Assembly: GCA_949358305.1 (NCBI GenBank)
Contig: OX442315.1
Location: 8,336,427 to 8,396,426, forward strand
Direction of reading: 5' to 3'
Length of the DNA stretch: 60,000 bases
Origin: Strigamia acuminata
Taxonomy: Eukaryota > Arthropoda > Chilopoda > Geophilomorpha > Linotaeniidae
Shown here: in pieces, positions 135 to 40,822 of the stretch
Numbering within the stretch: the first letter of the stretch is position 1
Layout of the letters: every line of letters begins with the position of its first letter
Translations under genes and position numbers: made by a program
Notes under the pieces: generated by a model
Seen by the model: the letters and a program-made list of their open reading frames with translations, nothing else
Told to the model about the DNA's origin: nothing
Database searches by the model: none

Positions 135-3100
135 ATGTCGCGAGAACGTCAAGCAGACGGTTCGGATGATGAACGTCAGAAAGAAAAGGAAATTTTAGAC
201 AAGGTAGTCAAAAGTTGAAAAAATATTCAATTAGAAATGCGACAAATAAGTCGATAGAAAACGTTTCCTTCACATAAATGTGTATGTCAATGTGATCAAA
301 GTTAGAAATGAGAAAGTTTATTAGAGAATTAAAAGGCTCACTCTCAGAAATGAATGGTAAAAGGGAAAAAATTGTCCGAATTTTTACTATTCATAAGTTA
401 AAAGGCAAAACGATTCATAAAAAAGAATTTTAAAGCATAAATTTGAGACGTTTAATTGAAAAATATAACAAAAAATTAAATGCGGGTACGGGAATCGAAG
501 TGAAAATTGCCATAAATAGCATGAGAGCGGACGCCATCTTGCGTTCAATTACGGAACCAAAATGGCAAAGTTTGAAACAAAACTTAAACACATTGACACG
601 CACATGGAAGAAACAAGAAGTGTGTGACAAAATAAGGAAGTAACGATAAAAAAAAAAAAAAAATTAGGCAGATTTTCGAGTCAGAAAGACAAAATTGTCT
701 AAAATAATTTCGTCAAAAAAGATAAAACTCCGCATGCCATGCAGAGGGGACGCCATCTAGCGGCCCGAAATCAAATTAGAAAACAATATTTTATCGAAAA
801 TGCTAAAATAAATGTCACACACACAAGGAATTGTTATTATATCGAAAATATTTATTAAATAACATTCTTTTGATAGACTGAACAAGCCATGGCGTCCTGG
901 GAGGCGATTCCAGAAGGTGCAATTATTAGACTAAACATCTTCCGTGGAAGGATCCCGGACAAGATTCAAATAGTGTTCAAGCGACTAGGATATGACGCTT
1001 GGATAACTCGGAAGTGGCTCACCAACCAAATCAAAAAATATTGGGGGACCACGAAGCGAATCTGCCATGGAGACACATTGGAAGCGCACGCCTTACGTCA
1101 AATCATATCCGAACTGGAAGACCCGCATGGACCCATTTTCAATGAGTTACTGGCGGAATTATATCCAATGGTTTACGAAGAGGCAAAGGATTATGAAGTG
1201 TATTGCGACCCGACAACAAATCGGCAAAAGTTTGCCAAGCGAGTCATGGCGAGGATCAAGGCGGAAGCTGGCCCAGTAGCAGCAGAATTTATAGTCAAAC
1301 AACAAGCTTTTTTAGAAGAGCAGGAAAAGCTAGGAGGCCCGCCTGTGACGTCACCACCCGAACATTTCGCAAAAACGCAGACTCAGATGCATCAATTGCA
1401 TCTAACTGGAGCCGTGGGGAATCGAGTTGCAAACACCAACCGAAATCGACCGCGCAGACGATATGCTCCAACTAAAGCGATGAAGGATTGGGAACGTCTC
1501 GAAGATCAGCGCGCGAGAAGAAGTCGACATTCTCCCATCGAGTGGCATGAAGAAGCACGCGAAGTCACGCCACCAAAGAGAGCAAAAAAATGCAGAAGGT
1601 CGCATAAAAAGTCGAAGGCACAACGCGAAATTACTCTGCCGATGTCAAGAAAGGATGCACTTTTAATCAAAATCAAGGGCACCTGCGACCCCGACGAGCC
1701 CATCATCCCGTTGGTTGAGTGGGACGACTCGTGGCAAGAGGATTTCGTGATTGTCGACGAGGCAGAAGAATCGGAGTATTCGTCGGACGCAGGGAAGGAA
1801 GCAGTCGCTACAGGAGGAGAAGACTCGTCGGTGTTCCAGAGTCCAGCACCACACAAGGATGTACCTGACACTCCATCACCACGGCCATCCTCACCTGAGG
1901 AAACGATGACCATTCAGGTACCAAGCTTGACTCAAGAGGCATCAGTAGAGCTGGAAGCCCCACCTCCACCTCCCCAATTGCAAGAACTGATGGCGCTGAA
2001 AGTCAAACCACCTAAAGCGAAAAAGAAGCCAAAAATGTTGCGTCCGAAAAAATCGATTGAACGTGATCGTTTGAAGGAAAAGAAGACGCCAGCTGTAGAT
2101 CCACACACGTTGCCAATGGAGGGACCCATTCCACTGATGGACCACTCGATTCCGGTCCCAGAACTCGCATTGTGCCCAGGGGAGCAACCAATGAGACCCC
2201 AAGAAGACTATGACAAGGATTTCTACAGATTGTGGCGCAGCTACTTGAAATACCCGCTGAACACCCAGAAACTGGTCCTCACAAATTTGGATGGATATCA
2301 GGCCGCCCAGCTCAATGAAGCGGTGAACGAGATGAAGCGTTTGGCCAGGGAATTTGTGCAAGTACCACTGAGGGAGCAAACTGAACGCTGGCTGCAAAAA
2401 TTCCAGAAGAAAACAGTGAAAGTGCAGCAACGCCTACTGTTTCCGGGGGTATTCTACACCGATGAGGCGTCGTTCATAGGCGATACTGTGTTGTATACAA
2501 CGCCATTAGGAATTCCGCCTGAAATGCTTACCAACTGGAAGTCAATCCTCTATGATGCGGTGTTGCTTCGGAGCAATTTGGTGTATGCAAATTTGGCGAA
2601 TGGAGAGACATGCAATCAGAGCGCAACACGTCTGAGACAGGAGTGGACGATGAGGTTGGAGGAAATGGAAAAGCGTCGAGACTCGCAAACGTTCGGCGCA
2701 CAAGCTTGTGCATTGTGGAGACCTGCGGGGGCCCCATTTAGACCAAAGGCAGCACCGACAGTTGCAATCGCCCCTGCCACCACGGCATTTGCTCAAGTCA
2801 GCCGCCCTTATGTGACATACATGCCGTCAGTCACCTATGTGCCAGCAGTGTATCGGGCGCTGACCTCAACCACCAACGCGACAGAGTCAGGGATCTGTTC
2901 AGTGGGGCCGTCCGCCAGCGGAAAAGAGGAAGTACAAACCGTTTCTATGATCCAAAATATGGAGTACGGCAAAATCAGGTACTATTACCCCAAGTTAAAG
3001 TTTTCCGATGGCACGAGAGCTTTGTTAAAGAACAGCTCCACTCTTTGCAAAGAGGCGTTTAAATGGCTTGAAAAATCTGTGCGCGAGTTGCAATACCGAT

Positions 3101-3327
3101 CGCGTCATCGCCAACTCATTGCAGTACGCCGAGCCCCGAGCAGCGAGGAAGAGAAATTCGAAATGAATTACGACCATGTTCTCAAGAAGACGGCAGACAT
3201 TCGTGACGTTTGGTTACACGTCAATACGGGGATGATGTCTGGCCCAGCCCGCGGATTGCCAAAGTTCTCAATTTCCGAGAATGCAACTCCCGTGGCTATT
3301 CCTGAGACGAAAGGGGTTGTTTGGTAA
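135..3327 (+). CDS. Element A third ORF (ORF3), spliced; unknown function
   Basis: The main exon (877-3327) is open and encodes most of an approximately 839-residue protein. The frame is also open between the splice acceptor at 875-876 and the first internal ATG (889). A leader exon at 135-203 (23 codons, ATG start, acidic/basic) ends at a GT donor in phase 0, which matches the acceptor phase. I see no family I can name. Visible features: an N-terminal I-F-R-G-x-I-P motif; Q-M-H-Q-L-H-L-T-G near residue 165; basic and proline-rich low-complexity stretches; a middle domain containing L-D-G-Y-Q-A-A-Q and L-A-N-G-E-T; and a C-terminal domain ending V-W-L-H-V-N-T-G-M-M-S-G-P. These motifs recur in the B and C ORFs. 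There is no signal peptide or membrane helix, so an envelope role is unlikely. The stop lies about 40 bp before the LTR. Confidence 0.8.
204..876 (+). other. Intron between leader exon and ORF3 main exon, element A
   Basis: It begins GTAGTC and ends CATTCTTTTGATAG. It joins two phase-0 ends and contains stops in all useful frames. The 66-codon ORF at 443-643 inside it has no recognisable content. An A15 tract sits at about 648-662. The same arrangement (short ATG exon, phase-0 intron, ORF3) occurs in B and C, which supports it as a real intron. Confidence 0.6.
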
Positions 3328-40100: not shown

Positions 40101-40822
40101 AATCGGCAGAGGATGTAGAAATGGTGATCTCGCCGACGAGCGGAGTTCCGATTCCGCCACCGATGCCTGCGGAGATATCCCCGCAAGGACCCGCCCTGTT
40201 CGAAGTGGCGGGTAAACCAAAGCGCTTGCTGTGCCGAACGCCACCCGTCAGGTCCGTCGAGCAAACGAAGCCGACACCGCCCGGGACCTCACCGGCCCGA
40301 GCGGCGACAACGACGCAAGCCGCTATTCCCGCGGCCACCCAGAAGCCGAAGCCGGCACCGCCTCCGCCAGACTATTACGGGCGAATCATCGAAGAGTTTC
40401 CCCATCTCTCGATGACGACGGCGACCAGGAGGTTTATCCTCGCGCAGCGGGATAAAGGCAAATCAGTCTTCATCTGGCTTCACAACCAGATCCGGAAGAC
40501 TAGAGACCTCATCTTCCACCAGAGGTTGCTGAGAGCCCACCGTGTGCCAGTGACGCCAGCGGAAGCCAATGCCATCCGGCATACGAACACCGGCTTCTCC
40601 GCCTACATCCCGAGCGTTTGGTTACACGAGAGGACGCGTGCCCCGCATGAGCCAGTTGACGGCCATGCATTATGCTTCATTACGGAGCATGAGGACCCCC
40701 GAGATCGGTCCTCGGCGTTAGTAGGCGATCTACCCGCGCCACCCGGCACTCAACCGCCTGTCCCTGGAGTGAGTTACGCCCAGGTGACGGACTCAGTGTC
40801 GGGTCCCCCAGGAAAGAAGTGA
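37122..40822 (+). CDS. Element C ORF3, spliced; unknown function
   Basis: The leader exon 37122-37211 (30 codons, M-D-E-E-E start, strongly acidic, same length as in B) is joined in phase 0 to the main exon 38057-40822 (922 codons with stop), about 951 residues. The main exon itself starts with ATG right after the acceptor. Motifs parallel A and B: I-F-R-G-A-L-P-D; Q-A-E-M-W-Q-L-H-Y-L-G; basic R/K region; proline/threonine-rich linker (about 39310-39420); a helical middle domain; a C-terminal domain with F-P-H-L, F-I-W-L-H-N-Q-I-R, R-L-L-R-A-H and V-W-L-H. No signal peptide or transmembrane helix. It sits where env would be in a retrovirus, but is not env. Function unknown. Confidence 0.85.
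37212..38056 (+). other. Intron between leader exon and ORF3, element C
   Basis: Donor GATCAG|GTAGAA, acceptor TTTCTCCATCCTTCCAG|ATG, 845 bp, phase 0. AT-rich, no ORF of note. Confidence 0.65.

Follow-up and report, generated by a model that had tools for sequence, protein, structure and literature searches.

In a window of 60,000 nucleotides (nt) from the centipede Strigamia acuminata (assembly GCA_949358305.1, contig OX442315.1, positions 8,336,427 to 8,396,426 of the forward strand), three long terminal repeat (LTR) elements, termed A, B and C, each carry a long open reading frame (ORF) that belongs to neither gag nor pol. Comparison of the three sequences supports one orthologous accessory gene, ORF3. 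Its predicted two-exon transcript would encode a non-envelope protein with three conserved domains, which we tentatively liken to CERV of the Cer1 element.

Three elements share a third gene

A first-pass annotation of this DNA had listed ORFs at 135 to 3327 (A), 19982 to 22627 on the minus strand (B) and 37122 to 40822 (C) together with a set of shared motifs, all of which were borne out by direct reading. The motif near the start reads IFRGRIP, IFRAALP and IFRGALP in the three ORF3s, and a second motif reads QTQMHQLHLTG, QTELHQLALAG and QAEMWQLHYLG. The middle domain contains LANGET or VANGET in A and B, while the C-terminal domain is marked by FKWL, FMWL or FIWL and by VWLH, which is common to all three. 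In B and C the gene is seen to lie between pol and the 3′ LTR, as had been proposed; for A, which lies at the window edge, the proposed placement is less firm, with pol out of view and the 3′ LTR only presumed.

BLASTP gave single-comparison expectation values (E) of 9e-34 (A-B), 2e-15 (B-C) and 6e-8 (A-C), and the profile comparison that had been named beforehand as a test, A plus B against C, was significant (probability 99.0, E 6.1e-18, 762 columns). For shuffle tests the ORF3 alignment was divided into three domains (N-terminal, middle and C-terminal) and two linkers. The domains occupy 919..1419, 2158..2649 (predicted to be helical) and 2947..3294 on the plus strand in A; 21773..22225, 20732..21250 and 20027..20395 on the minus strand in B; and 38096..38623, 39488..40138 and 40370..40723 on the plus strand in C. 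In eight of the nine domain comparisons the real score was unmatched by 500 shuffles (z 7.3 to 32.3). The exception was the middle domain of B against C, where 18 of 500 shuffles scored at least as high as the real pair (z 2.3) and BLASTP found no significant segment; the middle domain of C, the least conserved of the set, is the weak point of ORF3 conservation. Linker pairs remained at noise level in five of six comparisons, with linker 2 of B and C marginal (19 of 500, z 2.1). Since the domains carry the similarity and the linkers nearly none, the contrast between conserved domains and drifting linkers described in the first-pass annotation is real. Its further proposal of one ancestral gene agrees with the BLASTP and profile homology, this domain contrast and the common gene anatomy described below.

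The ORF3 domains are 20-33% identical pairwise, compared with 30% over 203 amino acids for gag and near 50% for pol. The divergence of ORF3 is thus about that of gag, with pol less diverged.

A two-exon model for ORF3

The outer ends at 135, 22627 and 37122 imply an exon upstream of each long frame, and a phase-0 GT-AG intron with stops in every frame fits each copy. In A, predicted exon 1 (135..203, plus strand, 23 codons) starts at an ATG, ends at the donor AAG|gtagtc, keeps phase 0 relative to exon 2, and is followed by an intron of 673 nt (204..876) and exon 2 (877..3327, 816 codons). In B, on the minus strand, exon 1 (22538..22627, 30 codons, beginning MDEE) precedes an intron of 270 nt (22268..22537) and exon 2 (19982..22267, 761 codons). 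In C, on the plus strand, exon 1 (37122..37211, 30 codons, also beginning MDEE) precedes an intron of 845 nt (37212..38056) and exon 2 (38057..40822, 921 codons), which has an ATG directly at the acceptor. The predicted proteins span 791-951 amino acids. In-phase donor-acceptor pairs numbered two (A), three (B) and two (C), from which one each was picked by eye for its pyrimidine tract and donor. The model fits three of three copies, which are alike in position and phase and roughly so in size; the intron is a prediction from sequence, as is the splicing itself.

Three observations favour this model. The agreement of the three copies is one. In addition, the N-terminal domain of B begins near residue 15 of exon 2, yet the first methionine of that exon is found no earlier than residue 242, so that either splicing or non-AUG initiation is needed. 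Finally, of the 198 ATG pairings between the spacers of B and C, the one formed by the two exon 1 starts opens the longest shared stretch (13 identical nt), a length that randomisation of the spacers equalled only once in 500 pairs. In B and C, exon 1 is acidic, with 8 and 13 aspartate or glutamate residues against one lysine or arginine each in 30 residues; A is near-balanced, with 9 acidic and 6 basic residues over the first 30, 7 of which lie past the end of exon 1. Ahead of exon 1 in C lies a candidate splice acceptor (cttccgcttttcacag, 36976..36995, plus strand), which is a consensus match only, and a pyrimidine-rich, acceptor-like sequence, tttctctttcaag, which ends in AAG and falls outside the scan rule, lies about 40 nt before the ATG of B. 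The 5′ end of the ORF3 transcript could possibly be supplied by leader splicing, as in CERV, or by a private promoter.

Base composition varies within the elements. The G+C content of exon 2 is 0.57 in B, compared with 0.46, 0.44 and 0.40 for its gag and pol frames, and 0.60 in C, compared with 0.52 and 0.47. At third codon positions the corresponding values are 0.59 (19982-22267) against 0.34 for pol (22970-27238) in B, and 0.65 (38057-40822) against 0.50 (32482-36633) in C. The ORF3 introns are A+T rich (G+C 0.30-0.36).

Selection on ORF3

The ratio of nonsynonymous to synonymous substitution rates (dN/dS, ω) was estimated on a grid of ω, domain by domain and linker by linker. The best ω was below 1 in all nine domain comparisons, with likelihood gains over ω = 1 of 2.3 to 34.9; twice the log-likelihood difference was at least 7.3 in eight of the nine and 2.3 for the middle domain of B and C. 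Four domain comparisons gave t > 30, indicating saturation, and the linkers likewise had a best ω below 1 (gains 0.6 to 14.7, with one fit diverged). The dN/dS check that had been suggested for this gene thus returned ω below 1 for every domain, but because silent sites are saturated and the linkers behave in the same way, the estimates are qualitative only, and ω alone fails to separate domains from linkers, as the shuffle test does.

Stronger evidence of selection is the persistence of long frames and domain residues after deep divergence, within the young insertions B and C. All three ORFs, of 761-921 codons, remain open despite saturated silent sites, and ORF3 is intact in both B and C, although the gag gene of B is interrupted by C.

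Searches for related proteins and folds

None of the three ORF3s contains a hydrophobic segment of membrane length (the highest Kyte-Doolittle means over 19 residues are 0.95, 1.01 and 1.07), and exon 1 is hydrophilic, unlike a signal peptide. No Pfam or NCBIfam family scored above cut-off, and no env model was among the matches. These results support the first-pass statement that the protein is not an envelope, and a significant match to a described family, which had been named there as a refuting outcome, was not obtained in these databases or in PHROGs (best E 0.26). We take all sub-threshold rows as chance: Peptidase_M16_C for ORF3 of C (E 0.17), two NCBIfam rows (0.13), the PHROGs row and seven Pfam rows for domain pieces, the best of which, GDSL (E 0.062), involved only the N-terminal piece of C and, at 14.2 bits, fell short of the cut-off of 32.9. 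Capture of a GDSL esterase or DEDDy exonuclease was rejected as an origin of ORF3, with no recognisable catalytic domain and nothing above cut-off. PDB sequences returned titin only, at an insignificant E of 0.23, and Rfam matched nothing over the whole window. The predicted ORF3 structures were mostly helical and of low confidence (mean predicted local distance difference test scores of 44 and 53.8); with these models no match was obtained in fold databases at E 1e-3.

A database of 5.77 billion proteins was searched twice with ORF3, without a match at E 1e-3 or 1e-2; each search scored only the 7998 candidates with the most words in common, which limits its sensitivity. As a positive control in the same database, pol of C gave 939 matches at E 1e-20 among 7984 scored, and the named rows among the 120 matches listed were mostly animals. 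In IMG/VR, searched without a positive control, none of the 1, 198 and 25 stretches retrieved with pol of C, the ORF3 profile and the pol profile, respectively, was confirmed, and tblastn with ORF3 of B found nothing in phage records. Comparison with gag of the same elements gave no tblastn match for whole ORF3s, and hhalign returned a probability of 0.1 when a profile of the middle and C-terminal domains was compared with the gag proteins of B and C; duplication of gag was rejected on this basis. In the open-licence literature, no title or abstract among the matches listed describes the ORF3 family.

The elements that carry ORF3

The window contains nested LTR elements, with element C sitting within the gag gene of element B. 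Element B occupies 18946-44851 on the minus strand and is flanked by a GAGT target duplication. Its 3′ LTR (18946..19929, 984 bp) differs by one mismatch from the 5′ LTR (43868..44851), and its primer binding site, TGGGGGCCCGTCCGGGA (43849..43865), lies 2 nt inside the LTR. Element C splits the gag gene of B into part 1 (41858..43756), which has no Pfam match, and part 2 (27217..28366), which matches Retrotrans_gag and has a zinc knuckle slightly below cut-off; pol (22970..27238) encodes protease, reverse transcriptase, ribonuclease H and integrase. Element C occupies 28367-41875 on the plus strand between copies of a 4-bp target duplication, ATCT. Its 5′ LTR (28367..29383, 1017 bp) and 3′ LTR (40859..41875) again differ by one mismatch and are accompanied by a primer binding site, TGGGGGCCTGTCCGGGA (29386..29402), a gag gene with Retrotrans_gag and zinc knuckle (29426..32539) and a pol gene with the same four domains (32482..36633). 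The gag and pol ORFs of C lie in different frames and share 58 nt, suggesting a frameshift for Gag-Pol. The primer binding sites of the two elements, each 2 bases inside the LTR, read TGGGGGCC[C/T]GTCCGGGA and differ in one base. Both elements have the TG..CA LTRs, target duplication, primer binding site, gag gene and pol domain order of Ty3/gypsy elements and, with one LTR mismatch each, are young insertions.

The pol products of B and C are 50.1% identical over 1204 amino acids (52% over 856 in a second alignment). In a quick tree of 94 rows, consisting of B, C and 92 of the 120 listed matches (the others were dropped for incomplete query coverage), they formed one clade with a Shimodaira-Hasegawa-like approximate likelihood ratio support of 100 and a long stem; the nearest database relative among the matches listed is 39% identical to pol of C. 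We take the elements to belong to a poorly sampled gypsy (Ty3) lineage. Among 50 stretches of prokaryote genome contigs, 27 gypsy-like pol loci (L001-L027) were 26-38% identical; these bacterial and archaeal contigs probably represent eukaryotic contamination. Element A is truncated, the window starting 134 bp upstream of its ORF3 exon 1. Its 3′ LTR presumably starts at 3368..3400 (plus strand), as judged solely from a TG after the purine tract AAAGAGGGGAAG.

Other features of the window

Related minisatellite arrays with spacings of 21 and 30 nt flank element B (14548-15514 and 45869-46267), and an 89-nt stretch is 88% shared between 14572-14660 and 44861-44949. A palindromic unit of about 1 kb at 17163-18235, with GTACCGGTACC-type repeats and nested inverted arms of 91 and 74 nt that are 97% complementary, is perhaps a non-autonomous DNA transposon. 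A host ORF at 8084-9118 has a MACPF (perforin-like) domain (E 6.3e-11). Two tandem ORFs of leucine-rich appearance (49015-50241 and 50968-52185) share 65% DNA identity over 1238 columns; the first, the only one of the pair scanned, has no Pfam match at 1e-3.

A possible role in RNA export

A role in RNA or DNA handling, or with a host factor, had been inferred in the first-pass annotation. We suggest, as the likeliest reading but with somewhat less than even confidence, that ORF3 works as a nuclear regulator of element RNA, like CERV of Cer1. Exon 1, short and situated immediately after pol, would be spliced across the phase-0 intron to the large exon 2, and the resulting spliced messenger RNA (mRNA) would leave the nucleus by default and be translated into a protein of three folded, probably mostly helical domains on fast-changing linkers, with no membrane segment. 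This protein would then bind the full-length, still splice-competent genomic RNA in the nucleus and allow its passage to the cytoplasm, where Gag-Pol would be translated and the RNA packaged. Splicing, nuclear localisation, RNA binding and export are the parts of this scheme that we infer. Motifs of the form K-[KR]-x-[KR] occur in all three proteins (four in A, one in B and five in C), as raw counts without a chance control.

Several results count against this proposal. No RNA-binding family scored above the Pfam cut-off, an RRM appearing only at E 0.25, and no nuclear export signal is shared, the pattern matching once in B and in neither A nor C. Linker 1 has basic stretches in A and C and hardly any in B, and the helical fold rests on the low-confidence models described above. 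With respect to the gene model, an exon 1 of this kind arises singly by chance at rates of 0.30 (A), 0.18 (B) and 0.38 (C) in randomised spacers, and C is the only element for which the consensus scan gave candidate 5′ donors (within the 5′ LTR) or an acceptor ahead of exon 1. Finally, no cysteine is present among the invariant alignment columns of ORF3, so that the cysteine loop of CERV has no counterpart, and in Cer1, CERV exons 1-3 are in the gag frame whereas exon 1 of ORF3 is private and lies downstream of pol (PMC10309623).

It is also conceivable, albeit unlikely, that ORF3 is packaged with Gag as part of the particle or the pre-integration complex, either as a nucleocapsid-like or assembly protein or as a factor for nuclear import or integration-site choice. 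Its gag-like rate of evolution, the mostly helical model (at low confidence) and the basic stretches of A and C would suit such a protein, but its middle and C-terminal domains do not resemble the elements' own gag by hhalign, tblastn found no match, and a separate spliced mRNA would serve a regulator better than a bulk structural component. We give a lower probability to the capture of a host gene whose product binds nucleic acid or chromatin and which was retained, intron included, to suppress host silencing or to target integration. Exon 2 does exceed gag and pol of the same element in G+C content and has a predicted intron of its own, and elements of bdelloid rotifers are described as having acquired unrelated ORF3s (PMC5408684). 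However, Pfam and NCBIfam gave nothing above cut-off, and PHROGs, the PDB and the protein searches with a word filter gave nothing significant. Any capture must also be older than the divergence of A, B and C, so that base composition does not speak for a recent one.

It is very improbable that ORF3 is an envelope that has diverged strongly, or a stand-in for one that serves spread between cells. The post-pol position and spliced expression are typical of env genes, as known from gypsy, and env sequences diverge fast; nevertheless, none of the three proteins approaches a membrane-length hydrophobic stretch and exon 1 is hydrophilic, and in Drosophila MDG1-group elements the short transmembrane protein sORF2 has its coding sequence upstream of gag (PMC11952523). 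The envelope candidate was rejected for its missing membrane anchor, signal peptide and env family match. To the idea that the three ORFs are chance or decaying frames whose resemblance is compositional we assign a negligible probability: parts of them are indeed low-complexity and proline-rich, but the similarity resides in the domains with little or none in the linkers, the BLASTP and profile E-values are low, the long frames stay open and the domain-versus-linker shuffle test refutes it. A bolder form of the export proposal, which we regard as doubtful, makes ORF3 a new protein family dedicated to exporting genomic RNA in gypsy elements with no known close tie to Cer1. ORF3 would then be a second, independently evolved system of the Rev/CERV type, whose intron is kept throughout the radiation to couple spliced (regulator) and unspliced (genome) RNA.

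Comparison with other third-ORF systems

The Env of errantiviruses such as gypsy has the same post-pol position and spliced expression, whereas ORF3 has neither signal peptide nor membrane anchor. Regulators of the Rev/Rex type, found in complex retroviruses, have a two-exon make-up. Like the role proposed for ORF3, they are spliced products controlling the export of unspliced RNA (for Rev, PMC10309623), but ORF3 is far larger and no export-signal pattern is common to its three copies. The third ORFs of gypsy elements are often named env from position (PMC5408684), and a possible env remnant is mentioned for an ostracod element (PMC7998251). In the retrovirus-like elements Juno, Vesta and TelKA of bdelloid rotifers, a lineage-specific third ORF follows pol; these encode a GDSL esterase, a DEDDy exonuclease or env-like proteins, whereas the ORF3 described here has no acceptable match (PMC5408684). 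Plant elements also carry extra genes between pol and the 3′ LTR, such as GENE23 of Grande, which is described as nuclear, and env-position aORFs; GENE23, unlike ORF3, is antisense with its own promoter (PMC7264820).

Among the matches listed from the open-licence literature, CERV was the only genomic RNA export protein of an LTR retrotransposon. It is made from a spliced mRNA, is not an envelope protein, consists of three structured domains joined by flexible linkers, is needed for export of genomic RNA and, like GAG, is reported to be highly divergent (PMC10309623). ORF3 resembles it in env position (B and C), predicted splicing and three domains with linkers (PMC10309623, PMC3315495), as well as in its lack of detected outside relatives and its Gag-like divergence rate (PMC10309623). 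By contrast, CERV has 517 amino acids and a five-exon mRNA, compared with 791-951 amino acids and two exons predicted for ORF3 (PMC10309623, PMC3315495). A cysteine-rich loop in its M domain is essential for RNA export (PMC10309623), and it has a GTPase-like G domain, where ORF3 has a mostly helical low-confidence model with no significant fold match. Because ORF3 shares place, plan and rate with CERV but differs in size, exon origin and cysteines, we propose that it works like CERV and do not assign it to the CERV family. That a gene other than env, with a predicted intron of its own, is kept in three divergent elements provides a testable case that more LTR retrotransposons than Cer1 may need a protein for their splice-competent genomic RNA.

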